Source of the DNA: an uncultured Woeseiaceae bacterium
GTDB taxonomy: Bacteria; Pseudomonadota; Gammaproteobacteria; Steroidobacterales; Woeseiaceae
Length of the DNA stretch: 64,000 nucleotides
Direction: 5' to 3'
Assembly: GCA_947259985.1 (NCBI GenBank)
Contig: CAMYOJ010000011.1
Coordinates: 1 to 64,000 of the forward strand
The notes beneath the pieces are model-generated. The model was not told the DNA's origin. It saw nothing but the letters and a program-made list of their open reading frames with translations, and made no database searches. Of the stretch, positions 2,538 through 36,856 are shown piece after piece; position 1 is the stretch's first letter; every line of letters begins with the position of its first letter. Position numbers and translations under genes: made by a program.

Positions 2538-3437
2538 ATGGCTGTTAGACCCTTTAGAGGCGTCGTCGCGCCGATTCTGACGCCATTCAACGACGACTCG
2601 TCGGTCGCGACCGACCTGTATGTCACTCACGCACACTGGCTCTTCGAGCAGGGCTGTGTGGCGATCGCGCCGTTCGGTACGACCGGCGAGGCGCTCTCCG
2701 TCGGCATTGACGAGCGCATCGCGGCCATTACGGCATTGGTGAACTCGGGCATCGACCCGGCGCGCCTGATTCCGGGAACCGGCCTTACAAATGTCGCCGA
2801 TACGGCGCGGCTGTCGCGCGCGTGCCTGGACATGGGCTGCGCGGCAGTGATGACCCTGCCACCATTCTATTTCAAGGGCGTAAGCGAGGAAGGCCTGTAC
2901 GACTATTTCGCGCAGCTCATTGGCGCGATCGGCGACGATGCGCGGATATTCCTCTATCACATTCCGCCCATTGCCGTCGTGGGCATTCCCCCGACGCTTG
3001 CCGCGTGCCTGCACGAGGACTTTCCGCAGCAGGTTATCGGCATCAAGGACAGCTCGGGCGACTGGGAAAACACTCGTGAGCTGCTCGATATCGATGGCCT
3101 GATCGTCTATCCCGGTTCCGAGTTGCCCTTGCTCGAGGCCCTCGAACTGGGTGCGCCAGGCTGTATCTCGGCGACGGCCAATCTCAACGCTGCTGCGATC
3201 GCGGCAGTCATAGCGGCCTACGATAGTGGCGATACCGCACTTGCCCGGTCACTGCACGAAGACGTAAAGCGTTTCCGTACGACAGTGCAGGACTATGCGC
3301 CGATTCCCGCGCAGAAGAGATTGCTGGCCGTCGCTACCGGCGACCTGCGTTGGGCCAATGTGCGCCCGCCGCTTGTTGCCATGCCCGAGGAAACCGGGCA
3401 CGAACTCGGCGCGCTGCTGCCACAACTAGCGCTTTAG
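2538..3437 (+). CDS. DapA/N-acetylneuraminate lyase family aldolase
   Basis: This is a 299-residue class I aldolase or synthase of the dihydrodipicolinate synthase family. The GTTGE motif that binds the keto-acid carboxylate is at FGTTGEALS. The catalytic Tyr is in YHIPPIAV, and the Schiff-base Lys is in GIKDSSGDW. Family members condense or cleave pyruvate-containing substrates, so the exact reaction is not given by motifs. The gene starts 24 bases after the FNR stop and ends 12 bases inside the 3' end of the convergent threonine-synthase-like gene. Because it sits beside a purine-breakdown operon it may act on a degradation product rather than make lysine; that is inference. Confidence 0.8.
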   Translation: MAVRPFRGVVAPILTPFNDDSSVATDLYVTHAHWLFEQGCVAIAPFGTTGEALSVGIDERIAAITALVNSGIDPARLIPGTGLTNVADTARLSRACLDMGCAAVMTLPPFYFKGVSEEGLYDYFAQLIGAIGDDARIFLYHIPPIAVVGIPPTLAACLHEDFPQQVIGIKDSSGDWENTRELLDIDGLIVYPGSELPLLEALELGAPGCISATANLNAAAIAAVIAAYDSGDTALARSLHEDVKRFRTTVQDYAPIPAQKRLLAVATGDLRWANVRPPLVAMPEETGHELGALLPQLAL

Positions 3438-4673
3438 GGCTGCCCGCACTGCTTCAAGCGACGGCTCAACCTCATGCGGTTCGGGCACGGCACGGCGCGC
3501 GCCGGCCACATCCTTGAGCCCGCTGCCCGATACCAAACAAACGACAAGCTCGTCGGGTGCCACCGTCTCCGCAGTAACCATCCGCTTCAGCGCCGCCCAG
3601 GGCGCGGCCGCCGCGGGCTCCGGGAACACGCCGGACAGGCGCGACATTTCCGCTATCGCGTCCAGGATCTCGTCGTCGGGAACCGTGATGGCCTCGCCAC
3701 CCGATTCGATGATCGCTCTCACGGCGGCAAGTCCATCGCGCGGCCGATCCACGGCAATGGAATCGGCGATAGTGTTTGCGCTGACCGCGTCGATTGAGAC
3801 CTTCGCCCAGTCGATGTCCACTCTGCCCGACGCGCGAAGTGCGTTGACAGTATTGCAGATGGCCGCACTCGATTCGGACTGCACGCAGTCGATCTTTGGC
3901 AGTCGATCGATGAGGCCTACGGCTTGCAAATCGAGCCAGCCTTTCCACATGCCGCTCAGCAGGTTGCCGTCGCCCGTCGGCACAAGGACGCGATCCGGGG
4001 CCCGGCCGTCGAGGCTCTCCCAGATCTCGAATGCGCAGACCTTCTTGCCCTCCCGCGTGAACGGGTTGTAGCCCGTGCTGCGATTAAACCAGCCGAATTC
4101 CTGCGACGCGGTCAGGCACAGATCGAAAGCGTCATCGTAGTTTCCGCGCACGGCCAGCACGGTAGCGCCGTATGACAGCGACTGTGTGAGCTTCGGAGGC
4201 GGTGCGGTTTCCGGCACGAATACGATAGCCGGAAGCCCGACCGATGCGGCGACGCAGGCGAGGGAAGATGCCGCGTTCCCAGTGCTGGCTACGGACACGA
4301 CGTCGGCGCCAATGTCCATCGCTCTACGAACCACGATCGCGCTCGCCCGGTCCTTGCTGGATGCACTCGGATTCGCAGTGTCGTCCTTGAGGTACAGGTT
4401 ACGCAGCCCCAGCGACCCGCCAAGTCGCCGTGCCGGGTACAGCGGCGTCCTGCCGATACGCAACGGGAATCGTTCGGCAGGCCTCTGCACCGGCAAAAAT
4501 GCCGAAAACGTAAAGATAGAGCGTGCACGATCGATGCCGGAGCGCTCGATCTCCTCGATTATGGCGGCATAGTCATAGGTGATCTCGAGATTCCCACCAC
4601 ACGACGGGCACACGAAGCCCGTAAAGTCCGCCGATTGAGTTTCTGCGCAAGCGATACAGCGATAACCGTTCAT
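3426..4673 (-). CDS. Threonine-synthase-like PLP enzyme with zinc-ribbon N-terminus
   Basis: This is a 415-residue fold-type II PLP enzyme. An N-terminal ribbon has two Cys pairs (CIAC and CPSCGG). The PLP Lys sits in PSASSKDRAS, and glycine-rich loops that hold the phosphate follow at STGNAAS and PTGDGNL. The family includes archaeal-type threonine synthases and other beta-eliminating lyases. The ATG at 4673 has GGAAG upstream and lies 10 bases after the carbamate kinase, making this the last gene of the nine-gene operon. In that context, breakdown of an amino acid such as 2,3-diaminopropionate is at least as likely as threonine synthesis. No other threonine biosynthesis gene is nearby. Confidence 0.7.
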   Translation of the reverse strand: MNGYRCIACAETQSADFTGFVCPSCGGNLEITYDYAAIIEEIERSGIDRARSIFTFSAFLPVQRPAERFPLRIGRTPLYPARRLGGSLGLRNLYLKDDTANPSASSKDRASAIVVRRAMDIGADVVSVASTGNAASSLACVAASVGLPAIVFVPETAPPPKLTQSLSYGATVLAVRGNYDDAFDLCLTASQEFGWFNRSTGYNPFTREGKKVCAFEIWESLDGRAPDRVLVPTGDGNLLSGMWKGWLDLQAVGLIDRLPKIDCVQSESSAAICNTVNALRASGRVDIDWAKVSIDAVSANTIADSIAVDRPRDGLAAVRAIIESGGEAITVPDDEILDAIAEMSRLSGVFPEPAAAAPWAALKRMVTAETVAPDELVVCLVSGSGLKDVAGARRAVPEPHEVEPSLEAVRAALKR

Positions 4674-4683
4674 ATTTCTTCCA

Positions 4684-5637
4684 CTAAGGAACGATGTGTG
4701 TTCCATGGAGCCCCTGCAGCGCGCCTTCGAGATGGTGCGGTTGCGTGATAATGACTTCCTTGCCGCCATTTTCGAGGAACGTCAGTGCGCTCTCGATCTT
4801 CGGGCGCATGCTGCCGGGCGCGAAGTGGCCTTCATCGAGATAGCGACGGCAATCATCCGTCGTCATGCGATCGATGTTGACCTGGTCCGCTGTTCCGAAA
4901 TTCAGTGCTACCTTATCGACGTCGGTCGATATGATCAGCATCTCCGCGCCGAGTTCGCAGGCCAGCAGGCACGAAGCGGCGTCCTTATCGATCACGGCGG
5001 GACGAGGCCGCAAGCTCCCGTCGGGCTTGTATACGACCGGCACGCCGCCACCGCCAGCCGCGATTACCAGGGTTCCGTCGTCGAGCAAGTTACGAATCGT
5101 TGCGAGTTCGACAACTTCGAGAGGTTCGGGTGATGCAACGAGTCGGCGCCAGCCACGGCCGGCATCTTCGCCCACAATCCAGCCATCGTCCTCCTGGTGC
5201 TGCCGTGCTTCCTCTTCGCTCATGAACGGGCCGATCGGTTTGCTGGGCGCCCCGAAGCTCGGGTCCTTTTCATCGACCACGACCTGCGTGACGATCGCAA
5301 CGACCTCCTGGCGCACTCCGTGATGCAGAAACTCGTTCTGCAGGCATTGCGCAATCTGCATGCCGATCGACCCCTGCGTGTCAGCAACGCAGTTGGCAAG
5401 CGGCACCTGGTGGATGACATCCCGAGCCAGTTCCGAGCGCAGTAGAACGAAGCCGACCTGCGGACCGTTACCATGCGTAATCAGAACGCGGTAACCGCGT
5501 TCGACGATGGGCACGATATAGCGGCTCGTTTCGCCGGCTGTTCGGTACTGGTCCAGCACGTCCATGTGCTCGCCGTCCTTGATCAGCGAGTTGCCCCCGA
5601 TCGCAATAACGACGAGCGGACTGTCTGCTTTTGCCAT
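4684..5637 (-). CDS. Carbamate kinase (YqeA/ArcC type)
   Basis: This 317-residue enzyme is expected to convert carbamoyl phosphate and ADP to ATP, ammonia and CO2. Visible family motifs are IAIGGNSLI at the N-terminus, THGNGPQVG, the glycine-rich AAGGGGVPV and STDVDKVAL. The start at 5637 follows a strong GGGAGGA ribosome-binding site; an upstream in-frame extension to 5775 looks non-coding. It lies 11 bases after ygeW, so the carbamoyltransferase and the kinase are probably made together. YgeW would release carbamoyl phosphate from a carbamoylated intermediate and this enzyme would bank it as ATP, as in fermentative arginine or purine breakdown. E. coli yqeA occupies the same kind of neighbourhood. 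Confidence 0.85.
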   Translation of the reverse strand: MAKADSPLVVIAIGGNSLIKDGEHMDVLDQYRTAGETSRYIVPIVERGYRVLITHGNGPQVGFVLLRSELARDVIHQVPLANCVADTQGSIGMQIAQCLQNEFLHHGVRQEVVAIVTQVVVDEKDPSFGAPSKPIGPFMSEEEARQHQEDDGWIVGEDAGRGWRRLVASPEPLEVVELATIRNLLDDGTLVIAAGGGGVPVVYKPDGSLRPRPAVIDKDAASCLLACELGAEMLIISTDVDKVALNFGTADQVNIDRMTTDDCRRYLDEGHFAPGSMRPKIESALTFLENGGKEVIITQPHHLEGALQGLHGTHIVP

Positions 5638-5648
5638 TGCTCCTCCCT

Positions 5649-6650
5649 TCACATCGTCAGTGCCATCAGGGCCTTGGCCGTGTGCAGGCGATTCTCGGCC
5701 TCGGGATAAACGCGCGAGTGCGGACCGTCGATGACGGCATCGGTCACCTCGGAGCCTCGATCGGCCGGAAGGCAATGCATGTAAATGGCCTGGTCCCTGG
5801 CGCGAGCCATCATGGCTTCGTCGCAGATCCAGTGTTGGTATTGCTGCGCCACGCGCATCGCTTCCTCGGGCTGACCGAACAGGGCCTCGACGCCCCAGCT
5901 CTTCGGATACACGATATCCGCATCCGCGAACGCGTCTTCCATGTCGTGCGTAACTTCGAAAGAGCCGCCCGAGCGCGCCGAGTTTTCCCGTGCCAGGCGC
6001 ATCGGCTCTTCCATGAGCGTGTACTCCGGCGGGTGCGCCAGGGTCACGTTCATGCCGAAACGCGTCATGAGCATGATGAGCCCCTGCGGAACGGACATCG
6101 GTTTGACGTAGCTTGGCGCGTAGGCCCAGGATACCGCAATCTTTAGATTTTTCAGATCCTTACCATATTCTTCACGAATCGTCATGAGATCGGCGAGGTT
6201 CTGGCAGGGATGGTCGACGTCGCACTGCATGTTGATGACGGGTACTGAAGCGTGTCTTGCCACCTCGCGCATGTAAGTCTGACCTTCGCCGGGGACGAGG
6301 TCGTGACGAATCATGATGCCGTGACCGTAGCTCGACAGAATCGTGCCCATGTCCTTGGGACTTTCGCCGTGGGCGATCTGCGAGGTTTCCGAATCGATAA
6401 AATGCGCGTGACCACCCAACTGTGTCATGCCGGCCTCGAATGAATTGCGCGTGCGCGTCGATTTGTCGAAAAAAATCAGGAACGCGGTCTTGTGCGCGAG
6501 GTGCAAGGTCGGTACACCATTCCTGAACTCATCCTTGAGGTGATCGGCGGTATCCAGGGCGAGTTCGATTTCGTCGTCCGACCAGTCCTGCGTCATGAGC
6601 CAGTCACGGCCCTTCATGTGGTCAGGTATCGGTTTTGCAGTGCGGCTCAT
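5649..6650 (-). CDS. ygeW: Knotted carbamoyltransferase YgeW
   Basis: This 333-residue protein belongs to the aspartate/ornithine carbamoyltransferase superfamily. The carbamoyl-phosphate loop is STRTRNSFE, HDLVPGEGQ is in the second half of the first domain, DHPCQNLAD follows the domain junction, and HCLP is near the C-terminus. The neighbours and extra loops match YgeW, whose physiological substrate has long been unclear, rather than ArgF or PyrB. The start at 6650 has ACGGAGA about ten bases upstream. It is separated by 19 bases from ygeY. In purine-degrading clusters YgeW is thought to act on a carbamoylated amino acid such as carbamoyl-2,3-diaminopropionate. The assignment rests on both motifs and synteny. 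Confidence 0.85.
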   Translation of the reverse strand: MSRTAKPIPDHMKGRDWLMTQDWSDDEIELALDTADHLKDEFRNGVPTLHLAHKTAFLIFFDKSTRTRNSFEAGMTQLGGHAHFIDSETSQIAHGESPKDMGTILSSYGHGIMIRHDLVPGEGQTYMREVARHASVPVINMQCDVDHPCQNLADLMTIREEYGKDLKNLKIAVSWAYAPSYVKPMSVPQGLIMLMTRFGMNVTLAHPPEYTLMEEPMRLARENSARSGGSFEVTHDMEDAFADADIVYPKSWGVEALFGQPEEAMRVAQQYQHWICDEAMMARARDQAIYMHCLPADRGSEVTDAVIDGPHSRVYPEAENRLHTAKALMALTM

Positions 6651-6669
6651 AGTGAGTGTTCTCCGTTGA

Positions 6670-7863
6670 CTAGCCTCGCGCGAACTCATCGACGAGCGCC
6701 GCGTAGAATGCCGCGGCGCCGACGAGATGCTCCACCTCGGTCTGTTCATTCGGCGCATGTGCGAAATGTTCATGACCCGGTCCGAGCCCTATGGTCGGAA
6801 TGCCATGCATCCCTGCCGTTGCCACGCCGTTGGTACTGAATGTCCAGTGACCGACTTCGGGCTCGCTGTCGAAGGTCTTTCGGTATGCGGCGAGTGCCGT
6901 CTGTACGGGTACCGAATCCGCGGGGGTTTCCCAGGTCGGGTAATACTTGCGTGTTGGATAAGTCAGGCCCGTGTAGCTTGGAACGGCATAGTCGAGCACG
7001 GTCACCGTCGCTTCGGCTGCCCTGACAGAGGGCAGGGCCAGAATCTCGGCAACCGAGGTATCCTCGGTCTCGCCGATGGTCAGCCTGCGGTCCAGATGAA
7101 TCGTGCAGCCATCGGCCACGGCACAAAGGCTCGGGGACGTCGAACGAATTTCGCTGATCGTGACCGTGCCCTTGCCGAGCGGGTCCCGAGGCTCGAGACG
7201 CTCGTTGAGCTTTTCGATATCGGCAATGATGCCGGCCATCTTGTAAACGGCATTGTCGCCGCGTTCGGGTGCGGAGCCGTGACACGATACGCCGGATGTG
7301 CGCACTTCCATCTCCATGCGGCCGCGGTGGCCGCGGTAGATGCGCATGCTCGTTGGTTCGGTAATGACGACAAGGTCGGGCCGCAGGCCGTCTTCGTTGA
7401 CGATGTACTGCCAGCACAGACCATCACAGTCTTCCTCCTGGATTGTGGCCGTCGCATAGAAGCTGACGTTGTCCGGGATACCGCGCTTTTTCAGGATTGC
7501 GCCAGCGTAGACGCTCGACGCGACGCCGCCCTTCATGTCGCTCGCACCGCGGCCGTAGAGGATGCCGTCCTCGATCTCGGCCGAGAACGGATCGCGATCC
7601 CAGAGATCGGCGTCACCCACGTCCACGATGTCGCAGTGTCCGTCGAAAGCGATGACACGCGGGCCCGAGCCGATGCGACCGAGCACGTTGCCCATTGGGT
7701 CGATCGTGACTTCATCGTAGCCGATGTCGAGCATCTCCTGGCGAATGCGTTCGACCACGGCGCCTTCCTCGGAACTCAGCGAAGGTATACGAATGATGTC
7801 CTGCATGAACTGCACGAGATCGGACTTTATCCCGAGCGCATCTTCGTAATAACTACTGCTCAT
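6670..7863 (-). CDS. ygeY: YgeY-family M20 hydrolase
   Basis: This 397-residue metallohydrolase of the M20 family has the expected two-zinc site. The first ligand and its Asp are in FDGHCDIVD, the bridging Asp is in GRGASDMKGG, the catalytic Glu pair is in QEEDCDG, and a further ligand is in ITEPTS. A dimerisation domain follows, and the last His is in EHFAHAPNE. The family cleaves amide or ureido bonds; databases call this branch the selenium-metabolism-linked hydrolase YgeY. The ATG at 7863 overlaps the stop of the upstream PLP enzyme by 4 bases, a sign of translational coupling. It may deacylate or decarbamoylate an open-chain purine product. Confidence 0.85.
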   Translation of the reverse strand: MSSSYYEDALGIKSDLVQFMQDIIRIPSLSSEEGAVVERIRQEMLDIGYDEVTIDPMGNVLGRIGSGPRVIAFDGHCDIVDVGDADLWDRDPFSAEIEDGILYGRGASDMKGGVASSVYAGAILKKRGIPDNVSFYATATIQEEDCDGLCWQYIVNEDGLRPDLVVITEPTSMRIYRGHRGRMEMEVRTSGVSCHGSAPERGDNAVYKMAGIIADIEKLNERLEPRDPLGKGTVTISEIRSTSPSLCAVADGCTIHLDRRLTIGETEDTSVAEILALPSVRAAEATVTVLDYAVPSYTGLTYPTRKYYPTWETPADSVPVQTALAAYRKTFDSEPEVGHWTFSTNGVATAGMHGIPTIGLGPGHEHFAHAPNEQTEVEHLVGAAAFYAALVDEFARG

Positions 7864-9332
7864 TGCTTGTCTCCATCGCCGTTGAATGCGTCGATCAGGC
7901 GGTCCCATTCATTGACGACGTCCTCTGCGAACACCTGCTTCCAGAAATCGTCGTCCCAGAGCTGCCGCAGTTCCTCTGAACTGCGACCCTGTTGTTCGAC
8001 CCAGGTGAAATACTTGAAATTGTGCAGCGCTTTCTGATCGGCGTAGGTCAGCTCGCGCAGGTGATCTGTCGTCGTTCCCTGCAGGTACCGGCCATAGTGC
8101 TGGTCGGCCAGGTGCTCGGTGTACGGGCCGTGTGCCTGGCGCATGTCCTGCATGCGCGAGCCGTACAGCTCCATGGAATCGGTCAGCGGCGTGAAGATTA
8201 CGTCCCGGCTGTCCATGTCGTAGTAACGCGCTGTCTTGATGGACGCGACGAGGTTGCAGATGCACGATATCCCCATGTCGCCGAGTCTTCCGACCACCTC
8301 ATCGGGAATGCCCTCGCGTCGCAGGCATTCGCGACCAGCGTCTTCGTTGAACAGCCGCATAAGTTGCATCGTCTGCTCATCGTCGACCGCCGCGACAAGA
8401 TTGGTATTGCGGACGTTGTGGATCCAGGGCACGTGCTTGTCACCGATGCCTTCGATGCGATGGTCGCCGAAACCGAATTGCAGCAAAGTCGGGCACTGCA
8501 ATGCCTCAGTGGCGACGACGCGAATTCCCGGGTGTTGCGATCGCAGGTAATCACCTGCCGCGATCGTGCCGGCCGATCCTGTGGCACTTACGTAGCCCGA
8601 CAGTCGTCGTCCGCTCGCGTAGTGTCCCTGGAATATCTCCTCGATAATTGAGCCCGTGACATGGTAGTGCCAGATCGCGTTGCCGAATTCCTCGAACTGG
8701 TTGAATATCACGATTGCGTCACCGCGCTCCTGCCTGAGCTCCCAGCATTTGTCGTAGATCTCCTTGACGTTCGATTCGGTGCCGGGCGTTGCGATGATTT
8801 CGTCGGTGCCGATTTCCCGCAGCCAGTCGAAGCGTTCGCGGCTCATGCCTTCAGGCAGGATTGCAACAGCCGGGCATGAGAGAAGGGCACAGTCGTAGGC
8901 ACCACCCCGGCAATAGTTGCCTGTTGACGGCCATACGGCTTTTTGGGTATCGGGATCGAACGTGCCCGTTACGAGACGCGGAACGAGACAGCCGTAGGCG
9001 GCACCGACCTTGTGTGCGCCTGTCGGGAACCACTTGCCGACGATGCCGACGATAGTCGCGTCGACGCCTGTCAACGCGGATGGAAATTCGATCCAGTTTC
9101 CACTCCCGAATCCGCCACCGTGTTCGACGGCTTCGTTCTTCCATGTGATGCGGAACAGGTTGGCCGGGTCGAGGTCCCAGAGACCGACACTTTTCAGCCG
9201 CGCCTTGATCGCGTCCGGGACCAACGTCGGGTCTTTCTGCTGTGCGATCGTGGGCAGGACGATGCCGTGCTCGCGAGCGCGCTCCTTGCTCTTTCGCAGG
9301 ACGTCTTCCCGAATCTCAGGTATCAGCTTCAA
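7860..9332 (-). CDS. Fold-type II PLP enzyme in the YgeX position
   Basis: This 490-residue protein is a cysteine-synthase/tryptophan-synthase-beta-like PLP enzyme. The probable PLP Lys is in FPTGAHKVGAA, an Asn-Gly or Thr-Gly loop that binds substrate is at PSTGNYCRGG, and the phosphate-binding glycine loop is at SATGSAGTIAAG. It is clearly longer than YgeX (diaminopropionate ammonia-lyase, about 400 residues), and the sequence I remember for E. coli YgeX does not align outside the fold motifs. Translation starts at TTG at 9332 behind a very strong GGGAGGGGAA site; that start overlaps xdhD by 4 bases. Its place between xdhD and ygeY is where E. coli clusters carry ygeX. I infer a lyase acting on 2,3-diaminopropionate or a related amino acid; the substrate is unproven. 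Confidence 0.7.
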   Translation of the reverse strand: MKLIPEIREDVLRKSKERAREHGIVLPTIAQQKDPTLVPDAIKARLKSVGLWDLDPANLFRITWKNEAVEHGGGFGSGNWIEFPSALTGVDATIVGIVGKWFPTGAHKVGAAYGCLVPRLVTGTFDPDTQKAVWPSTGNYCRGGAYDCALLSCPAVAILPEGMSRERFDWLREIGTDEIIATPGTESNVKEIYDKCWELRQERGDAIVIFNQFEEFGNAIWHYHVTGSIIEEIFQGHYASGRRLSGYVSATGSAGTIAAGDYLRSQHPGIRVVATEALQCPTLLQFGFGDHRIEGIGDKHVPWIHNVRNTNLVAAVDDEQTMQLMRLFNEDAGRECLRREGIPDEVVGRLGDMGISCICNLVASIKTARYYDMDSRDVIFTPLTDSMELYGSRMQDMRQAHGPYTEHLADQHYGRYLQGTTTDHLRELTYADQKALHNFKYFTWVEQQGRSSEELRQLWDDDFWKQVFAEDVVNEWDRLIDAFNGDGDKQ

Positions 9333-12115
9333 TGTTCCCCTCCCAGTTGTATCGTGGGGATTGCGTCGCGGTCTCCCCAGGCCAGTTCGACTTCCGCGGC
9401 TCCGGAGTTAATCGCACGCAACAACTCATCCTGGTCGACGGGCAGGCTGCGAACCCGAACGCCCGTAGCCCGGTAGATGGCGTTCGTAATCGCGGGACTC
9501 GTCGGAATACTCGGCAGTTCTCCCACGCCCTTGGCTCCAAATGGTCCGCTGCTCGTGCCATCCTCGATGATATGGGAGACGATTCGTGGTGCGTGCGTGA
9601 TGCTCGGCGTCTTGTAACGCGCCATCACATTGGTCCACGGAGTGCCTTCTTCCTGGATGTAGTGCTCGGTCAGCGCGTAACCAACGCCCATCACGATGCC
9701 GCCTTCGATCTGGCCTTCGAGCGTTAGCGGATTGAGGGCACGGCCAACGTCGTGTGCGGCGATGACTTTGTGGACGGCAACTTCGCCGGTTCGCATGTCG
9801 ATTTCGCAAAGTGCAGCCTGCGCACAGAAAGAGAAAGCGACATGCATGTCGCCGCCGGTTCCGAGCGGCCGTGTTTGCGGCGCCCAGTATTCGTATTGCA
9901 CTTTGACGCTTTCGCGAGGAGCCTGTACCGACAGCTTTTCGGCTGCTTCGCGAGCGGCGAGCCGTACCGCATTTCCGCTCACGTAAGACTGGCGGCTCGC
10001 CGTCGTCGGGCCGCCATCGGGACAGAAGTCGGTATCACCGAGCAGTACGCGCACCTTGTCGCGTTCGATGCCCAGCTCCTCGGCAGCACAGGCAGCCAGG
10101 ACGCCGGGCAGACCCTGGCCCATCTCGGCCGACGATATCCGCACCTCGGCTACCAGGCCTCTGTCCGGGTCTTGCCATGCCTCGACTTCGGCCGTGGCCT
10201 TGTCGGGCGCGCCGCCGCCCAGGCCCGTGTTCTTGTAACCGACGGCGAGGCCCCAGGCGAATCGCCGATGACCTTCGTCCCAGCGCCAGCGAAAGCGTTC
10301 GTCCCGGATTTCGCGTTCGACCTTGTCGATGCACTCCCGAAGGCCGACGCTTTCCCGCATCACCTGGCCCGTCGACGTTTCCGAGCCGATTTCGAGCGCA
10401 TTCATGCGCCGCAGTTCAATCGCATCGATGTCGAGCTTGCCGGCGAGAATATCCATGTTGCTTTCGACGGCGAAGCAGCTCTGCGTGACACCGAAGCCTC
10501 GAAACGCGCCGCAAGGGACGTTGTTGGTATACGTGGCGAAGCAGTCGACCTTGACGTTGGGTATCGCGTAAGGCCCGGTTGCATGTGTCGTGGCGCGTGT
10601 CAGCACTTTTTCGCTGAGGCTGGCGTAGGCGCCGCCGTCGCCGTACAGCGTTGCCTGCACGGCCGTCAGCCTGCCGTCGCTGGTTGCTCCCGTGCGCATG
10701 CGTATAACGGTGGCATGACGCTTGGGATGAACGAGCAGGCTTTCCTGGCGCGAGTACAGCATCTTGACGGGCCGGTCGGTCGCCTCGGCGAGCAGTGCGG
10801 CATGAATTTGTCCCGCAATGTCTTCCTTGCCTCCGAAGCCGCCGCCCATGAGTGTCGCAACCACACGAACCTGCTCGGGGTTCACATTTAGCGTAGCGGC
10901 TGCCTGGTCACGGTCCGTGTACGGTATCTGGCTACCGACGTAAATCGTCGTCTTGTCATGTTTCGCTGTCTCGCCGCGTACCGCACATTCATCCCGCATG
11001 CCTCCGAAGTCCGCCGGGTCGTATCCGGCCGGCACGCCAATCGAGCACTCCGGTTCGAGAAACAGGTGCTCCGTGGTCGGTGTGCGGTAGGTTTGGTCGA
11101 CGATGACGTCAGCCTCGGCAAAACCACCTTCGATATCGCCCTTCTTGACCTTTATGTGCTTGAGCAGGTTGCCGTCCGGGCGTTCGTCGTGCACCTGGGG
11201 CGCGTTGGCTTGCAGCGCGGAAATCGCATCGGTAACCGCCGGCAGTTCCTCGTAGTCAATGTCGATAAGTTCGATGGCCTCGGCCGCGATGCGCTCCGAG
11301 TCGGCAGCGACGATCGCGACCGCGTCGCCGACGTAACGGACCTTGTTGCCGCAAAGCACCGGCCAGTCGATGCTGACGACGCCATGCGCATTGCGGCCCG
11401 GAATGTCGGCATGCGTCAGCACGGCCCTCACGCCTTCGAGCGCTCTGGCCGCCTCGGTGTCGATCGATCGGATTCTTGCGTGCGGTATGCCGGCCCGCCT
11501 GGTGCGCGCGTACAGCATGCCCGGGAAGCTGTAGTCATCGGTGAATCGCGCGCTGCCTGTGATCTTCGCAAGTGCATTCGGATTGGGCATCGCTCTGCCC
11601 ACTGCAATACCCGGGTGCTGCGTTTCGGGAAGGTACGGTCGAACGTCCTGGCCCGACGCCTGCAGAATCGCATTGATGACGCTTTGGTAGCCCGTGCATC
11701 GGCAGTAGGAGTCCTTCAGCGCCGCGCGGACGTCCTGTTCGGTTACAGCGTCACCCGTGGCTTTGCTGCGATCGAGAAGTCCTTTGGCCGTCATGATCAG
11801 GCCCGGAGTGCAAATGCCGCACTGCACGGCGCCGTGATCGAGAAACGCCTGTTGCAGCGCGTGCAAGCCGCCGTCCTGTGACAATCCTTCGATCGTTTCG
11901 ACGGCCGATCCGGCTGCCTTGAATGCCGGAAAGACGCAGCTGACGACAGGAGTGCCATCGACGAGTACCGTGCAAATGCCGCATTCGGCTTCAGCGCATC
12001 CAACCTTGGTGCCTGTCAGGCGCAGGTCCTCGCGCAGTACCTCGGAAAGGTAGCGTGATTCGGGCACGTCGATGTCGACGGTGGCGCCATTGACGGTCAT
12101 TTGCAGGCGGCTCAT
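9329..12115 (-). CDS. xdhD: XdhD-type molybdo-iron-sulfur purine hydroxylase
   Basis: This 928-residue protein fuses a two-[2Fe-2S] N-terminal domain with a xanthine-dehydrogenase-type molybdopterin domain, as in E. coli XdhD. The first cluster ligands are in GCAEAECGICT with a later Cys in VVSCVF; the second cluster is CGICTPG with CRCTGY. Further on are the Mo-site motifs GGGFGGKED, GAFRGFG and EMGQGL. The catalytic Glu lies in AKGVGELP near the C-terminus. No in-frame TGA is present, so it is not a selenoprotein. The ATG at 12115 overlaps ygfM by 4 bases, so the FAD subunit is probably its partner. The likely role is oxidation, or reverse dehydroxylation, of hypoxanthine, xanthine or urate in the cytoplasm. 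Confidence 0.88.
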   Translation of the reverse strand: MSRLQMTVNGATVDIDVPESRYLSEVLREDLRLTGTKVGCAEAECGICTVLVDGTPVVSCVFPAFKAAGSAVETIEGLSQDGGLHALQQAFLDHGAVQCGICTPGLIMTAKGLLDRSKATGDAVTEQDVRAALKDSYCRCTGYQSVINAILQASGQDVRPYLPETQHPGIAVGRAMPNPNALAKITGSARFTDDYSFPGMLYARTRRAGIPHARIRSIDTEAARALEGVRAVLTHADIPGRNAHGVVSIDWPVLCGNKVRYVGDAVAIVAADSERIAAEAIELIDIDYEELPAVTDAISALQANAPQVHDERPDGNLLKHIKVKKGDIEGGFAEADVIVDQTYRTPTTEHLFLEPECSIGVPAGYDPADFGGMRDECAVRGETAKHDKTTIYVGSQIPYTDRDQAAATLNVNPEQVRVVATLMGGGFGGKEDIAGQIHAALLAEATDRPVKMLYSRQESLLVHPKRHATVIRMRTGATSDGRLTAVQATLYGDGGAYASLSEKVLTRATTHATGPYAIPNVKVDCFATYTNNVPCGAFRGFGVTQSCFAVESNMDILAGKLDIDAIELRRMNALEIGSETSTGQVMRESVGLRECIDKVEREIRDERFRWRWDEGHRRFAWGLAVGYKNTGLGGGAPDKATAEVEAWQDPDRGLVAEVRISSAEMGQGLPGVLAACAAEELGIERDKVRVLLGDTDFCPDGGPTTASRQSYVSGNAVRLAAREAAEKLSVQAPRESVKVQYEYWAPQTRPLGTGGDMHVAFSFCAQAALCEIDMRTGEVAVHKVIAAHDVGRALNPLTLEGQIEGGIVMGVGYALTEHYIQEEGTPWTNVMARYKTPSITHAPRIVSHIIEDGTSSGPFGAKGVGELPSIPTSPAITNAIYRATGVRVRSLPVDQDELLRAINSGAAEVELAWGDRDAIPTIQLGGEH

Positions 12116-12984
12116 CGGCTTGCTCCTGCTCGCTCGGTGGCGGTCGCCAGGATAACGGGCAGCCAGGTACGTATCATGGCTTCGCGATACTCGCGTGTCG
12201 CCCGATACTTGCTTTCGCGCAATTGCACGTTTTCGAGCGCCACTCCAACGGCATGTTCGAAATGCTCCTGCACTGGCGGGGCGCCGACAAGTGCGTCCGC
12301 CACCGGTTCCGCGAACCACGGTATGGGCCCGACCGGCCCCATGCCGATGCCGGCGCCCTCGATCTTGCCATCGTCGCCAAGCCTGATCCGCGCGGCCATC
12401 GAGATGATGGGCAGGCACAAACCCTGTGGACGCATCACGCGGTGGAATGCCGAGCCCTCGTTGTCGCCCGTTGGTCGGAAACGCAAGCGCGTCAGCAGCT
12501 CGCGTTGCCGGTCAATGTGGCTGCGGCCCGGACCCTTGAATGTATCTCTTGCGGGCATCCATCGAGTGCCATCGCTTCCGGAGATCTGCACATCACCGCC
12601 TAAGGCCAGTAAGCCGATCGTGCCGTCTCCGGCGGGCAGGGCGTGCGCGACGTTGCCTGCAAGCGTGCCCACATTGCGCACCTGGGGGCCGCCGATAACG
12701 CCACAGCTCTCGGCGAGGCAAGTTCCGCGGGCCCTGATGCGCGGATCGTTGACGATCTCGGAGTGCGTCACGCCACAGCCAATGACGATATAGCCGCCGG
12801 ATTCCGTGATTTCACGAAGCCCGCCAATGCGCGTTGCATCGACGACCGCGTCAAACGGTCGCCTGAGACCGCGCCGCGTTTCCACGAGCAAATCGGTGCC
12901 GCCACCAACGACGCGCGCCCGGCCATCGTACTTGTGCAGCACGGCGAGGGCTTCGTCCACGGTCGCTGGCGTGTAGTAGTTCAA
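12112..12984 (-). CDS. ygfM: FAD-binding subunit of molybdo-hydroxylase (YgfM)
   Basis: This 290-residue protein has the fold of the FAD subunit of xanthine-dehydrogenase-like enzymes. The FAD pyrophosphate loop is VVGGGTDLLVE near residue 28, and the second FAD motif is PQVRNVGTLAGNVA near residue 100. The C-terminal CO-dehydrogenase flavoprotein domain follows. It should pass electrons between XdhD clusters and NAD(P) or another carrier. Both ends overlap neighbours by 4 bases (ssnA upstream, xdhD downstream), which suggests fixed stoichiometry. E. coli has the same ssnA-ygfM-xdhD order. Confidence 0.87.
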   Translation of the reverse strand: MNYYTPATVDEALAVLHKYDGRARVVGGGTDLLVETRRGLRRPFDAVVDATRIGGLREITESGGYIVIGCGVTHSEIVNDPRIRARGTCLAESCGVIGGPQVRNVGTLAGNVAHALPAGDGTIGLLALGGDVQISGSDGTRWMPARDTFKGPGRSHIDRQRELLTRLRFRPTGDNEGSAFHRVMRPQGLCLPIISMAARIRLGDDGKIEGAGIGMGPVGPIPWFAEPVADALVGAPPVQEHFEHAVGVALENVQLRESKYRATREYREAMIRTWLPVILATATERAGASR

Positions 12985-14303
12985 TGAATTCGCTCCCAGA
13001 TCCGGGGCGCGCGCTCTGCGCAGTGCGCGCGAATAGCGTCCTCGTCGATATCTGGCAGCCGCCCGTCTTCGACAATGACCTTGCCGCGGGCAATCGTCGT
13101 TCCGACGCGTGTGAAACTCAGGCCAAACAGCAGGTGCCCGTAAAAGGTATCGGCATTCAGAGGCGTGAAAGGTACGTAGTCGGGAATGATGATATCGGCC
13201 AGCTGCCCGGTCGCAAGTGCGCCGCGTGGTTCGCGGAATATGCGATTACAGATGCTGCGATTGTTCTTCAAGAGGATCTCGCAGGCTTCGGCGAAGGCGA
13301 CTGTCGGATCGCGATGATAGGTCCGCTGGTGAAGGTACATGGCGCGCGCCTGGGAAATCAGGTGTGAGGACATGCCATCGGTACCAACGCCAACGGTAAC
13401 GCCGTGTTTGAGCATATCGAGAATGGGCGCGACGCCCAGGCCGTTGTTCATATTCGATTCGGGATTATTGACGAGCATCGAGTCCGTCGAACGCAACAGG
13501 TCGAGCTCTCTCGATTCGAACAGTACGCCGTGAACGAATATCGTCTTGCGTCCGGGGATACCGAAGTCCAGGAAACGATCCATGATGCGGCGACCGTAGC
13601 GGTCCATCGTCGTTTGCACGTCGATGTCGTCTTCGGCCGCGTGCACGTGAAAGCCGGCGTCGAGAGAGTTGCCGATGTCGGCACAACGATCGAGTGTTCG
13701 GGTGCCCAGCGTCAGCAATGCGTGCAGTCCGAACATGGCCTCCATCTGGCCGTCGTCCGCGTCGCGGCATTTCCTGATGTAACGAGCGTTTTCCTCGATG
13801 CCTTCTCCCGGCTGGTTGCGGTCCGAGACTTCGTAGCACAGGCAACCATTCAGGCCGACGTCGCGAAAGGCCCGCTCTACCTGGTCGAGGCTGCCATCCC
13901 AGCAAGAGGGTGAGGCGTGGTGGTCGATGATCGTCGTGCACCCGGCACGGGCGGCGTGCATCACGGCGAGCAGGGCCGAGTAGTAGACGTCTTCGGAATC
14001 GAGCGCCGCGTCGAGCTTCCACCAGAGATTCTTGAGCGTTTCCTCGAAGTTGGTCGGCGCCGGTCCCGGAGGCGTGAAGCCGCGGGCGAACGTCGAATAC
14101 AGGTGATGATGCGCATTGATCAGGCCAGGCATTACGAGGCTGCCGCGTGCATCGATGATGCGGTCTACCTTATAGGTGTCAGGCGGGAAATTGCCCACGT
14201 CGATAATGTGGTTTCCCTCAACATAGACGCTGCCGTTCTCGATGAATCGGTCATTCTCATCGAGAGTGACAAGATGTCCGTTTGTGACAAGCAGCGAACT
14301 CAT
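12981..14303 (-). CDS. ssnA: Putative aminohydrolase SsnA
   Basis: This 440-residue protein is an amidohydrolase-superfamily member of the SsnA group. The first metal motif is NAHHHLYS (HxH type), a His follows in FHVHAAED, the next is in FVHGVLF, and the last Asp is in GVGTDGMSS. The short N-terminal beta-sandwich segment and the C-terminal return to it are present, as in guanine deaminase and atrazine hydrolase relatives. I chose the ATG at 14303, one base past the ygfK stop; the frame upstream is antisense-like noise. SsnA is part of the purine/urate gene set in gut anaerobes and E. coli, where deamination or ring opening has been proposed. Confidence 0.85.
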   Translation of the reverse strand: MSSLLVTNGHLVTLDENDRFIENGSVYVEGNHIIDVGNFPPDTYKVDRIIDARGSLVMPGLINAHHHLYSTFARGFTPPGPAPTNFEETLKNLWWKLDAALDSEDVYYSALLAVMHAARAGCTTIIDHHASPSCWDGSLDQVERAFRDVGLNGCLCYEVSDRNQPGEGIEENARYIRKCRDADDGQMEAMFGLHALLTLGTRTLDRCADIGNSLDAGFHVHAAEDDIDVQTTMDRYGRRIMDRFLDFGIPGRKTIFVHGVLFESRELDLLRSTDSMLVNNPESNMNNGLGVAPILDMLKHGVTVGVGTDGMSSHLISQARAMYLHQRTYHRDPTVAFAEACEILLKNNRSICNRIFREPRGALATGQLADIIIPDYVPFTPLNADTFYGHLLFGLSFTRVGTTIARGKVIVEDGRLPDIDEDAIRAHCAERAPRIWERIH

Positions 14304-14304
14304 A

Positions 14305-17300
14305 TCATTCCTCGTATCCGGGATGCTCGATTCTGCCGCCCGACATGGTTTCGGCAGAGAGCGGCAAGAATGCCGCCGATGATCGCAGCGCCCTGAGCAA
14401 GACATACATTTCTGCACAATGTTGCAGCGACAGGTTGCCATGCGGCTCCGTCGGCCGGCTTTGCCTGACCGCGAAAGTCTCGGGATCGAGTTGCACGCTG
14501 CAGGCCGGGCCGTAGTAGTCCAGCATGCCGTCCAACTCGATTCGGTGGGTCGTGTCGTCCCGGCGTGAGTCCAGCGCCCATCGTTCGCCGTGTCTGGATA
14601 CCATGAAGGCATTGTCCCGCTGCGACTCGAAATCAGCGCGATCGACGTACAGTCGCGGTTTGTCGCGATAGGGCTTGCCGGCGGCAGGGCAGAACGTCGT
14701 GCAATTGCCGCATTCATTGCAGAGGTCGGCGAGCACTGCGACCTGGTGTGGTTGTGTTACATCGAAGTTTTCATGCCCGGTAACGAGCAACTCATCGTCG
14801 CCTCGTTCGAGGCGTGGCAGAGCAACTGAAAATGGCGCGTTTGTATAGGTCTGCAAAGCAATGTTGGGGCATACGCCGACGCAGAGGCTGCAGAAACCGT
14901 CGCAGTCGAGGCACCGGGAAGCCTCTGTCTGCGCCTGCGCGTTACTGTACGTCAGGACGACCTCGTTGAAGTTGCGACGATCGCACGGGTCGGTCTGTGG
15001 CGCGGCGACGCGCCGCTTTTTCTCGGCGCGACGCCGGGCTATTTCGTCGGCCGCAACGAGCCTGTGTGCGCCGGAAACGGACGGTTTTCTGTCCAGTATA
15101 TGCTGCGCAATCGCCTTTCCGGCCGCGGCCGCCTTGACGATCGAAGCGGGCCCTTCGTTGGCAACATCGCCACCGGCGTAGATTCCGGGTACCGATGTCT
15201 CGAAAGTGTGCGGATCGACATCGATGTAGCCATTCTCATTGAGTCTTACCGCTTCTTCATCGAAGAAGTCCAGTACCGCGTGCTGGCTGATGGCCATTAT
15301 CAGCGTATCGAGCGGTATCTCGAATTCGGATCCGGTCACTTCTCGCGGCACCTTGCGCCCCGACGCATCGCGTTCGCCCGTGTAATGCATGCGCGTGCAT
15401 CGCAGTGCGCACAGCTTGCCGTCGCGGACCTCGAGTGCAGCAGGATTTGCCAGCTCGATGATATCGATGCCTTCTTCGATGAGCTGAGCGATTTCCTCGC
15501 GGTCGGCCGGCATCTGGTCGATCGTACGCCGATAGATGAGCGTTACTCTGCCGCTGTTCTGCCGCCAGGCAACCCGGGCACAGTCCATCGCCGTGTCGCC
15601 GGCACCGATAATCCCAACTGCGTCGCCAACGTCGAGCGCGCTGTCCAGCTTCGACTGACGCAGGAACTCGAGTGCATCGACGACGCCCGTGCAGTCTTCT
15701 CCCTGGAGCCCCAGCGTCTTGCTGCGCTGTGCGCCGACCATGATGACGATGCGCTCGAATCCTCGTTCCCTGAGGTCCGACAGGCGGAGATCCGTGCCGA
15801 CTTCCGTGTTGAAGTGAACCTTGACACCGAGGTTCTCGAGTACCGCGAAGTCCTCAGCGAAGACAGCATGCGGCAGGCGATATTCGGGTACTGCGCCACC
15901 CACCATTCCCCCGCCGTAAGCATGTTGCTCGAATACCTCGACGGTCATGCCGCCGCGCGCGAGTTCGGACGCCGCCGAGATGCCACCGGGCCCGGCGCCG
16001 ATAACGGCGACCTTGCGCGCGGTTGCGACAGTGATTGGCCGCATAGGTGGCCGCGGACCCGATTCCATGATGAATCGCTTGATGTCGCGGATTGCCAGCG
16101 GCTCATCGACATGCGTGCGTATGCATGCGTGCTCGCAGAGGTGGTCGCAGACGCGCCCGAGGATACAGGGGATCGGGTTATCGGCCAGAACGACCTGCCG
16201 GGCCGCGGTGAGATCGCCGTCACGGACCGCGCTCATATACGCGGGCACATCCTGGTCCAGCGGACACTCGTCGGTGCAGGGCGCCCTGATGCAGTCGAAC
16301 GCGGTCAGCGCTCTGGAAGTCTTTGTGTGCGTCTTGTCGAAACCATTCTTCGCGTTGTCGGGGTCCGAACGTGCGTCGTCAGCGTATACAGCGAGGTTTC
16401 GTAGAGCAGCCGATGTCGCATCACGTTCGTAGTCGGCAGAACGGCAAATGAAATCATCGATATCAGATGCCCCCGAAGCGGCGATCGCGGAGTCCATCGC
16501 CGAGACGTAATCCGTGATGCGCAGGTAACCGCCGGTCTTGAGAAGATCGGAACACACTGTGATCGTCTGCATACCGGCGGCCAGCAGGCTGGAAATGTTG
16601 TTGCGACTGACGCCGGCAGAAAACGACATGGGCAGGCGGCCCGTGAATTCCTGTGCCAGCTTGTTTGCCAGATTGACGGTTATTGCGTGTAGAGGGCGGC
16701 CTGACATGTATGACATCTTCTCGCTGGCATCGAAGACAGGCCGCGAATTTTCAACCTCCAATGTGTTGGACAGCTTGACGCCGAACGCCAGGCCACAATC
16801 GTTCGCGATGCGATCGAGGTTCGTCAGCATTGGTACGGCGTCGGCGTAATCGAGATCATGTTCGAACGCGATGTCCGGTACGGCGACATCACGATAGCCG
16901 AGCTCGTCATTTAGGATCGTCCGCACCAGCTCCGGCCCGAGCAGCGTCGGATTGCACTTGACCAGCGTGTGCAGGCGTTTCTCCTGCAACAGGTAGGCGC
17001 TGATACTCTCGATTTCCTCAGGCGGGCAACCGTGCATCGTCGACAGCGTAACGTTGTCGGAGATGCAGTTGGGTATGGAGATATCGCGTACGGCCGGATA
17101 CTGCCGCGCGACCGTTTCGATGACCTCGTTCTTGTAGTTCGAGCAGTCGCTCATCTGCTCGAGGAACCACTGCATGTTCGGTTTCCTGATTCCCTCGAGA
17201 TCGTAGCCGACGCTCATGTTGAACACGATTGCCGGACGGTCCCCCGGATGGCCGAGCATGTGGTGTAACGCGTGTATGAGCACCCATGCACGAAGGTATT

Positions 17301-17667
17301 CATCGAAGGACTGGAAGACCTTGAGTTCTTGCGACCATTCGACGTTGTAACCCTCGTCCTGCATGTCGATACAGGGCTTACTGACATTCAGTTCATCGAG
17401 GGTTTGAACGGTCTTCAACTCGATATAACGCGCACCGCACAGCCAGGCGGCAACGATGTTCTGTGCCATCTGCGTATGAGGGCCCGCGGCCGGTCCGACC
17501 GGAGTGTCGAGTGGATGGCCAAATATCGAGGTGCGGAATCGGTCGTTGCCGCTTGGCGTAAAGAAATGCCGGCGCGGAATGCCGAACGCCGATGCACACT
17601 GATCCAACTCGCCAAATAGCCAGGCGGCGAGCTGTTCTGTCGAGATAGGCCGGAACAACTCGGACAT
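14305..17667 (-). CDS. ygfK: YgfK, large Fe-S flavoprotein oxidoreductase
   Basis: This 1120-residue protein heads the purine operon. Residues 1 to about 400 form a TIM-barrel-like domain related to dihydroorotate/dihydropyrimidine dehydrogenases. Next comes a glutamate-synthase small-subunit-like part with Cys clusters (CIRAPCTDECP and GRVCDHLCEHAC), an FAD loop VIGAGPGGISA and an NAD(P) loop IIGAGDTAMD. The C-terminus has further Fe-S motifs, CLDCDGFCSLCVGVCP and CNECGNCTTFCP. In databases it is called putative selenate reductase subunit YgfK, but a role in reducing a purine-derived ring fits its domains and context better. The start at 17667 follows GGGAGG. Upstream is a 113-base gap with a palindrome. 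Confidence 0.88.
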   Translation of the reverse strand: MSELFRPISTEQLAAWLFGELDQCASAFGIPRRHFFTPSGNDRFRTSIFGHPLDTPVGPAAGPHTQMAQNIVAAWLCGARYIELKTVQTLDELNVSKPCIDMQDEGYNVEWSQELKVFQSFDEYLRAWVLIHALHHMLGHPGDRPAIVFNMSVGYDLEGIRKPNMQWFLEQMSDCSNYKNEVIETVARQYPAVRDISIPNCISDNVTLSTMHGCPPEEIESISAYLLQEKRLHTLVKCNPTLLGPELVRTILNDELGYRDVAVPDIAFEHDLDYADAVPMLTNLDRIANDCGLAFGVKLSNTLEVENSRPVFDASEKMSYMSGRPLHAITVNLANKLAQEFTGRLPMSFSAGVSRNNISSLLAAGMQTITVCSDLLKTGGYLRITDYVSAMDSAIAASGASDIDDFICRSADYERDATSAALRNLAVYADDARSDPDNAKNGFDKTHTKTSRALTAFDCIRAPCTDECPLDQDVPAYMSAVRDGDLTAARQVVLADNPIPCILGRVCDHLCEHACIRTHVDEPLAIRDIKRFIMESGPRPPMRPITVATARKVAVIGAGPGGISAASELARGGMTVEVFEQHAYGGGMVGGAVPEYRLPHAVFAEDFAVLENLGVKVHFNTEVGTDLRLSDLRERGFERIVIMVGAQRSKTLGLQGEDCTGVVDALEFLRQSKLDSALDVGDAVGIIGAGDTAMDCARVAWRQNSGRVTLIYRRTIDQMPADREEIAQLIEEGIDIIELANPAALEVRDGKLCALRCTRMHYTGERDASGRKVPREVTGSEFEIPLDTLIMAISQHAVLDFFDEEAVRLNENGYIDVDPHTFETSVPGIYAGGDVANEGPASIVKAAAAGKAIAQHILDRKPSVSGAHRLVAADEIARRRAEKKRRVAAPQTDPCDRRNFNEVVLTYSNAQAQTEASRCLDCDGFCSLCVGVCPNIALQTYTNAPFSVALPRLERGDDELLVTGHENFDVTQPHQVAVLADLCNECGNCTTFCPAAGKPYRDKPRLYVDRADFESQRDNAFMVSRHGERWALDSRRDDTTHRIELDGMLDYYGPACSVQLDPETFAVRQSRPTEPHGNLSLQHCAEMYVLLRALRSSAAFLPLSAETMSGGRIEHPGYEE

Positions 17668-32686: not shown

Positions 32687-32790
32687 CAGGGCACTGTAGC
32701 CAGCCGGAATCGGGCTCGCGATACGTAAATCTACTGCGCCGGGCGCCAGGATTCGCCAGCCGTAAATATACCTATGGCATTTCAATGAAT

Positions 32791-32810
32791 ACATTAGATA
32801 ATACTAATGT
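32791..32810. promoter_or_regulatory. Perfect inverted repeat in the divergent promoter region
   Basis: ACATTAG and CTAATGT flank six A/T bases, in an unusually A+T-rich spot between the tryptophanase-family gene and the YeeE operon. The arms match exactly, and a GATAAT hexamer that could be a -10 box lies within the repeat. This is typical of an ArsR/SmtB-like or other dimeric repressor operator. Sulfide-sensing ArsR-family repressors (BigR, SqrR) often control YeeE and rhodanese genes, so this is a candidate; no such regulator is in the window. Confidence 0.45.
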
Positions 32811-36844: not shown

Positions 36845-36856
36845 GGATGAGCGGCA

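Follow-up and report, generated by a model that had tools for sequence, protein, structure and literature searches.

In the first 64,000 nucleotides of contig CAMYOJ010000011.1 from an uncultured Woeseiaceae bacterium (hereafter the window), nine open reading frames (ORFs) with likely starts lie on the minus strand at 3426-17667 as one tight operon, which probably serves the reductive, oxygen-free breakdown of urate, with a pair of pyridoxal phosphate (PLP) enzymes, PALP1 and PALP2, taking over the step of YgeX. Read from 17667 down to 3426, the order is YgfK, SsnA, a flavin adenine dinucleotide (FAD) subunit, XdhD, PALP1, YgeY, a YgeW-like protein, carbamate kinase and PALP2 (Table 1). The pathway itself is known, since its reactions were reconstituted in 2025 with enzymes of E. 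coli and C. difficile (Li et al., PMC12507026; statements taken from this paper and from PMC2276186 are those of their consulted sections). What is new is the variant, in which YgeX is missing, the PLP pair is present and the HyuA step is left to another locus; in the open-licence literature no account of the PALP1/PALP2 variant was found. A preliminary description of this DNA, made from the sequence alone, had spoken of a purine/urate operon of novel composition. In fact the composition differs from that of E. coli as it said, but the pathway has been on record since 2025 (PMC12507026), related genomes share the composition, and many phyla share the PLP pair.

Table 1. Genes of the operon in order of transcription, with window positions
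Gene	Predicted product	Position (strand)	Model or nearest match
YgfK	NAD(P)H-dependent flavin/Fe-S reductase, first operon gene	14305..17667 (-)	TIGR03315, 901 bits vs cut-off 835
SsnA	predicted opener of the reduced ring (aminohydrolase)	12981..14303 (-)	TIGR03314, 467 bits vs 455.5
FAD subunit	XdhB-like FAD-binding subunit occupying the YgfM position	12112..12984 (-)	PF00941 + PF03450
XdhD	Mo/Fe-S subunit, proposed urate reductase	9329..12115 (-)	best model TIGR03311
PALP1	490-aa fold-type II PLP enzyme, CysK/CBS branch, variant marker	7860..9332 (-)	
YgeY	M20 hydrolase, proposed ureido-group remover	6670..7863 (-)	TIGR03526, 540 bits vs 321.5
YgeW-like	short YgeW relative, carbamoyltransferase, 333 aa	5649..6650 (-)	40% to E. 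coli YgeW
Carbamate kinase	YqeA-like carbamate kinase	4684..5637 (-)	NF009007, 379 bits vs cut-off 266
PALP2	threonine-synthase-like PLP enzyme with N-terminal CxxC...CxxC segment	3426..4673 (-)	PF00291

In the published pathway, XdhD-YgfM converts urate to 2,8-dioxopurine, YgfK and SsnA carry this on to ureidomethyl-hydantoin, HyuA opens the latter, YgeW and YgeY strip the ureido groups, and YgeX yields pyruvate, SsnA serving as the marker of the route (PMC12507026); the sequence of ureido-group removal is disputed (PMC12990295). For the operon all reactions are assigned by homology, above all the division of labour between PALP1 and PALP2. XdhD with the FAD subunit would convert urate to 2,8-dioxopurine, whose ring would be reduced by YgfK and opened by SsnA to ureidomethyl-hydantoin, while the hydantoin ring would be opened outside the operon, most likely by the dihydropyrimidinase of a pyrimidine locus. 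The YgeW relative would then take off one ureido group as carbamoyl phosphate, from which carbamate kinase would form ATP, and YgeY would take off the other to leave 2,3-diaminopropionate. PALP2 is our first choice for the elimination of this compound to pyruvate and ammonia because both its sequence and its fold stand closer to YgeX; PALP1 would act on that C3 amino acid too, or on an isomer of it. The window holds a candidate for every step except those of HyuA and YgeX. As for the earlier idea of a pathway ending in ATP formation by the kinase, ATP could indeed be formed, but the kinase would be a side branch using carbamoyl phosphate and the carbon would probably end as a C3 acid.

Gene identities and comparison with known systems

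The spacings from YgfK to PALP2 are 1, -4, -4, -4, -4, 19, 11 and 10 bases, which agrees with the nine minus-strand genes and the overlaps or gaps of at most 19 bases described at the outset. The names YgfK, SsnA, YgeY and carbamate kinase given there are borne out by scores over the model cut-offs (Table 1). YgfK, whose ATG is preceded by GGGAGG, is 36% identical to E. coli YgfK over 1047 columns; SsnA reaches 500 bits with PRK07203 (cut-off 444) and 34% identity to its E. coli counterpart; YgeY reaches 557 bits with PRK13004 (cut-off 321) and 53% identity to E. coli YgeY; and the kinase is 43% identical to E. coli YqeA and stays under the arcC cut-off (342 bits vs 358). The remaining names hold less well, as XdhD and the YgeW relative fall below their cut-offs, and the supposed YgfM is XdhB-like: its top NCBIfam models are XdhB, under cut-off, with 27% identity to E. 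coli XdhB and no match to E. coli YgfM at E 1e-5. XdhD has the domains Fer2 and Fer2_2 and two molybdenum cofactor-binding domains, and is 27% identical to E. coli XdhD. The short carbamoyltransferase shares with E. coli YgeW the stretches STRTR, SWAYxPSYxKPxSVPQG (W/T at the first place) and MHCLPAD, and lacks several YgeW insert segments and the C-terminal extension; its top solved relative is 3q98, labelled 'transcarbamylase', which we take to be E. coli YgeW.

The E. coli cluster runs ygeW-ygeX-ygeY-hyuA-yqeA ... ygfK-ssnA-ygfM-xdhD, and thus shares with the operon YgfK, SsnA, XdhD with a FAD subunit, YgeY, a YgeW relative and carbamate kinase, with the YgfK-SsnA-YgfM-XdhD order the same. 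Unlike that cluster, the genes here form one continuous operon which contains no YgeX, HyuA, YqeB, YqeC, MocA/YgfJ or recognised transporter, but two other PLP enzymes and a short carbamoyltransferase, in a genome without a selD over cut-off. The C. difficile variant with UacX and UacY likewise exchanges single enzymes of the route (PMC12507026); it swaps YgfK and YgeW and keeps YgeX, whereas the operon here keeps YgfK and a YgeW relative and YgeX is missing.

Conservation of the operon in related genomes

The source metagenome-assembled genome (MAG) comprises 2.5 Mb in 60 contigs and is 82% complete with 3.2% contamination; below, G-numbers denote genomes (G000 being the source), L-numbers loci, and C-numbers after a G-number contigs. 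A search of relatives for the gene order, as the preliminary description had proposed, gave the identical nine-gene order in seven other genomes of the same genus, namely G167, G380 (L067), G382, G391, G392, G393 and G395. Because the same nine genes recur in the same order in these genomes, the operon is not a chance arrangement. Further relatives have shorter runs of the operon, cut by contig ends; for example G398, G403 and G404 have the first two to four genes only, and then the contig ends. In G392, XdhD and PALP2 are each split into two pieces in different frames, and at L069 the kinase was not seen in the stretch examined. A scan for promoters and terminators gave sites no commoner than in shuffled sequences (3 vs 5.2 and 10 vs 12.4).

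Counting the source genome throughout, YgfK is matched at E 2e-148 or better in 16 of 37 genomes of the genus, the next best match being 3e-68, and G167 was added by a class-level search. Only 2 of 398 Pseudomonadota have YgfK over the cut-off, which suggests that the operon is rare in the phylum. Among Gammaproteobacteria a PALP match at E 0.001 occurs in 242 of 369 genomes, and a near-full-length PALP1 of at least 50% identity in 3. Gene content was further tested genome-wide in 13 of the 17 operon-bearing genomes of the genus, in 8 of its 21 members that lack a strong match to YgfK (here called operon-free), and in genomes from other groups that carry PALP1.

Absence of YgeX and presence of a PLP enzyme pair

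No YgeX over the model cut-off of 276 bits was found in the 13 operon-bearing genomes (76-100% complete, best 84.5 bits), and overall only 1 of 47 genomes has one (G447); the operon-free G383 reaches 249 bits, below the cut-off. As first described, canonical YgeX and HyuA are absent from the operon and two other PLP enzymes are present, both of fold-type II, with PALP1 being CysK/CBS-like and PALP2 threonine-synthase-like. PALP2 has a weak match to E. coli YgeX (26% over 132 aa, E 6e-9); with the diaminopropionate ammonia-lyase model NF006058 it reaches 37.5 bits vs 276, and PALP1 has no listed match. Moreover, a PALP2 ortholog is present in all 13 operon-bearing genomes and in none of the 8 operon-free ones (best there 125 bits), and SsnA follows the same distribution: all 13 score 312-485 bits (7 of them over the cut-off, two truncated at contig ends), and none of the 8 operon-free genomes exceeds 236 bits. 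The genomes were picked via YgfK or PALP1, so this contrast expresses linkage and is not an independent sample, and the Fisher value is not to be relied on. The YgeX step is probably taken over by the PALP1/PALP2 pair.

Co-occurrence of the pair across phyla

A PALP1 search of genome contigs gave at least 586 relatives, and the best 80 loci, many of them cut by contig ends, were analysed. Near PALP1 in these 80 loci we find PALP2 in 39 (within 1.5 kb in 28, on the same strand in 37), YgeW-type genes in 28, XdhD in 22, SsnA and YgfK in 21 each, YgeY in 19, the kinase in 17, HyuA in 13 and YgeX in 1. SsnA and YgfK were both unseen in the stretch examined at 51 of the 80 loci, of which 27 were hand-picked and 26 genomes searched, L092 being left out. 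In these 26 genomes from many phyla, SsnA of at least 290 bits is present in 23 (16 of them over the curated cut-off 455.5), PALP2 of at least 241 bits in 24, and YgeX in 1; the limits of 290 and 241 were set by us, above the next-best paralogues at 272 and 199 bits. For example at the Elusimicrobiales locus L097, six proteins around PALP1 gave no functional hint, and the genome (G441) carries SsnA and PALP2 elsewhere.

The environmental loci L121 (Desulfobacterales), L083 (Gemmatimonadales), L113 (Bacteroidota), L107 (Holophagaceae) and L101 and L111 (Anaerolineae) combine PALP1 and PALP2 with several of YgfK, SsnA, XdhD, YgeY and YgeW, as the operon does. L111 also has the short type of carbamoyltransferase (52%), whereas the YgeW of L121, L083, L113 and L107 is 63-69% identical to that of E. 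coli. HyuA is present at L113, L107 and L101, unlike in the operon here, and the stretches of L101 and L111 are without YgfK. At L121 the row is PALP2, PALP1, YgeY, XdhD, SsnA, YgeW, YgfK, with ABC transporter genes of cluster C42 beside it. Genes of this cluster occur at 7 of the 80 loci, including L121, L111 and L112, and the PnrA-like member at L112 is one more hint that points to purine nucleosides. Another clustered gene, C24 (its L133 member glycosyltransferase-2-like), is found at 11 PALP1 loci, and at L111 (9004-9963) and L101 (8956-9954) it sits between PALP2 and PALP1.

A midpoint-rooted tree was made from 38 PALP1 rows. All seven that belong to the Woeseiaceae-type group fall into one clade (100/98), and this clade is placed together with rows from Kiritimatiellota and Verrucomicrobiota (100/100); the branch of L050 (about 50%) is very long. 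Among the matches listed, the closest named relative of PALP1 is 85% identical and is labelled 'uncultured Woeseiaceae'. This tree is consistent with a lateral gain of the gene, and does not prove it.

The HyuA step and the question of selenium

The genome encodes a dihydropyrimidinase outside the operon (G000:C7:29132-30508; TIGR02033, 608 bits vs cut-off 393) that shares 40% identity with E. coli HyuA and has as neighbours a PreT-like gene, a gene that reads as PreA-like and an NCS1-like permease; the same contig carries thymidine phosphorylase, and NupC-like and nucleoside-hydrolase-like genes just under cut-offs or below. With E. coli HyuA as query, 11 of the 13 operon-bearing genomes (all but G381 and G392) give at least 314 bits, and 7 of the 8 operon-free ones (all but G373) at least 307 bits. 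Because it is similarly frequent in both, the dihydropyrimidinase looks like a housekeeping enzyme that could serve both the pyrimidine and the urate route. Colocalization of HyuA with SsnA is described for 'many organisms' and not for all (PMC12507026). The absence of HyuA, taken earlier as part of a variant, is accordingly correct for the operon, but the step may be filled by the pyrimidine locus.

A selD over the TIGR00476 cut-off was found in none of 21 genomes of the genus, 13 of them operon-bearing (best 78 bits vs 125), where the source MAG is 82% complete and others are up to 100% complete, and 2 of 14 genomes of a control panel were over the cut-off. Since no selD exceeds it, the selenium labels in the family names probably do not apply here. 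That the operon should serve selenium metabolism, as the TIGRFAM names would have it (selenate reductase subunit YgfK, SsnA, YgeY) and as a genomic link of these genes to selD proposed in 2008 (PMC2276186) might suggest, is hardly credible: we reject it on the missing selD, and later assays of YgfK and SsnA were made with 2,8-dioxopurine (PMC12507026). The same result bears on YqeB, YqeC and MocA/YgfJ of E. coli, which, like HyuA, have no match among the nine operon proteins. Their absence from the operon was noted correctly, but it need not mean a new route, because they were proposed as accessory proteins of selenium-dependent molybdenum hydroxylases (PMC2276186) and selD is over the cut-off in 0 of the 21 genomes.

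Points against and rival explanations

Several facts weigh against the assignment to urate and against the replacement of YgeX. XdhD scores 768 bits, below the TIGR03311 cut-off of 830, and an insertion that in E. coli XdhD holds residue 606 is absent from it and from the XdhDs of L121, L083 and L052; the carbamoyltransferase scores 246 bits, under the YgeW cut-off of 500; no urate transporter was recognised within the operon; and nothing ties the dihydropyrimidinase to the operon, as it is equally common in operon-free relatives. Among the 26 PALP1 genomes from many phyla, 3 have no whole SsnA match of 290 bits (G433 with a 137-bit piece beside PALP2, G445 with 203 bits and G450 with 110 bits) and 2 have no PALP2 ortholog (G430 and G450). 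PALP2, with 170.7 bits, is narrowly over the TIGR00260 thrC cut-off of 167.1, and the roles of PALP1 and PALP2 are not separable from the present data. As a side observation, the Latescibacterota genome G433 has two SsnA-like matches, C1:1708746-1709477 and 3187541-3188092, which cover complementary parts of the model about 1.5 Mb apart, and the second adjoins PALP2.

One rival view is that the substrate is not urate but another nitrogen heterocycle (xanthine taken directly, a hydantoin or a pyrimidine). XdhD is closer to the xanthine dehydrogenase model TIGR03311 than to E. coli XdhD, HyuA is missing and a pyrimidine route lies elsewhere in the genome. We nevertheless regard this as quite improbable: SsnA, by which the urate route is recognised (PMC12507026), and YgfK are both over their cut-offs, the XdhDs of L121 and L083, in YgfK-bearing loci, also fall to TIGR03311, and the genome has a separate dihydropyrimidinase locus as well as XdhAB. 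Residue 606 has been proposed to orient urate in E. coli XdhD. As a test of substrate it is not decisive, the segment being absent also from other XdhDs at PALP loci.

The score of PALP2 with TIGR00260 could suggest the ordinary threonine synthase of the cell, carried along in the operon, and in fact its structural model (predicted local distance difference test 94.2) has threonine synthases as the closest folds, with diaminopropionate ammonia-lyases lower in the ranking. With five PRK models of threonine synthase PALP2 stays under the cut-off. That it is an ordinary threonine synthase is very unlikely. PALP2 tracks PALP1 and SsnA across phyla, and its profile has T for R in the stretch NSxNPxRxEGQKT, presumably binding the substrate phosphate, as compared with three solved threonine synthases. 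A housekeeping role is disfavoured by the lack of any ortholog in all 8 operon-free relatives, which presumably make threonine otherwise.

A different fate for the carbon would follow if, with the upstream pathway the same, PALP1 swapped the beta-amino group of diaminopropionate for a nucleophile such as sulfide, so that urate carbon ended in an amino acid. The nearest solved folds and sequences of PALP1 are mainly beta-replacement enzymes (O-acetylserine sulfhydrylase, cystathionine beta-synthase, beta-cyanoalanine synthase), and it is two PLP enzymes, not one, that stay together across phyla. However, the same ranking includes the hydrogen-sulfide-producing elimination enzymes Fn1055 and Fn1220, and the operon has no recognised sulfur gene, so that we consider such a replacement unlikely. 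On the roles of the two enzymes the fold search informs at the superfamily level only; the best 50 fold rows include diaminopropionate ammonia-lyases in the case of PALP2 but none in that of PALP1, and nothing is excluded by this. The preferred reading is still urate breakdown, with PALP2 as the likelier enzyme of the elimination; gene content, gene order, conservation and co-occurrence have been established computationally.

Oxidative urate cluster and respiration genes

The source genome also carries an oxidative purine/urate cluster, at 7145-17859 of L156 (G000:C20:22000-41999), which acts on the same substrate by other enzymes and intermediates. Here XdhA, XdhB, XdhC, 5-hydroxyisourate (HIU) hydrolase, 2-oxo-4-hydroxy-4-carboxy-5-ureidoimidazoline (OHCU) decarboxylase, PuuE allantoinase, allantoicase and guanine deaminase are over their cut-offs, a PuuD-type urate oxidase reaches 437 bits with PF06181, and ureidoglycolate lyase is just below its cut-off (159.8 vs 160). 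All 13 operon-bearing genomes and 6 of the 8 operon-free ones have PuuD-type matches over 425 bits, and for OHCU decarboxylase the numbers are again 13 of 13 (in G393 as a 29-bit end fragment) and 6 of 8. Because both recur in relatives, a contaminant contig is unlikely as the source of the cluster, and the reductive and oxidative routes appear to co-occur in one genome; the reductive one would then be used under oxygen shortage.

That the organism also has respiratory genes, as stated in the preliminary description, agrees with an anaerobic-respiration-like block at window 34101-39864 with a PhsA-like molybdoenzyme, an NrfD membrane subunit and a multihaem cytochrome c. Moreover, a cytochrome D1 family protein (PF02239, nitrite reductase) over 410 bits is present in 10 of 13 operon-bearing and 5 of 8 operon-free genomes, and was not found in the source MAG.

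Flanking genes

Among the nine flank proteins scanned, no conserved neighbour or transporter was found adjoining the operon, and the flanks differ between genomes; these proteins are a beta-eliminating lyase, an ABC ATPase, a rhomboid protein, isocitrate dehydrogenase, two alpha/beta-hydrolase-like proteins, DUF2339, a response regulator and a SIMPL protein. In the window, a DapA-like gene of the dihydrodipicolinate synthase family (2538-3437) and PALP2 overlap by 12 bases at their ends, and G167 and G391 also have such a gene next to the operon. At 281-2513, rnfE, rnfA and a ferredoxin-NADP reductase-like gene run convergent to the operon end; in the rnfA frame the TIGR01943 match stops at 130 of 190 and an unmatched, frameshift-like continuation follows, while homologues of the reductase-like gene and the next gene flank the operon in G167 and G391. 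A tryptophanase-family gene lies at window 31316-32794. A beta-eliminating lyase gene lies upstream of the G391 operon (L052, 5020-6459), and homologues of it occur in G377 and G398.

Implications

Beyond the preferred reading, PALP1 and PALP2 might constitute an undescribed two-enzyme end of the pathway that serves environmental bacteria of many phyla instead of YgeX and is more than a pair of lyases, with diaminopropionate converted by beta-replacement to a different amino acid or with its isomers handled apart; Woeseiaceae would have gained this end laterally and joined it to the oxidative route. We put this forward only tentatively, as possible and not as likely. If true, one cell would have an oxygen-dependent choice between two complete urate pathways. 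Organisms that apparently have both the oxidative and the reductive route are now to hand.

In the consulted parts of the literature on it, the pathway is treated mainly as a gut trait, and a commentary of 2025 weighs an ancient origin against a recent adaptation to the gut and inclines to the second (PMC12990295). With marker genes and a distinct, conserved PLP pair in genomes whose labels name sediment, groundwater, marine and other environmental lineages from many phyla, the age of the pathway becomes testable by phylogeny. The published neighbourhood survey used PF00291 (PMC12507026, Fig. 3 legend), and PF00291 alone is an unsafe marker for YgeX. Altogether, two PLP enzyme families gain a concrete candidate substrate.

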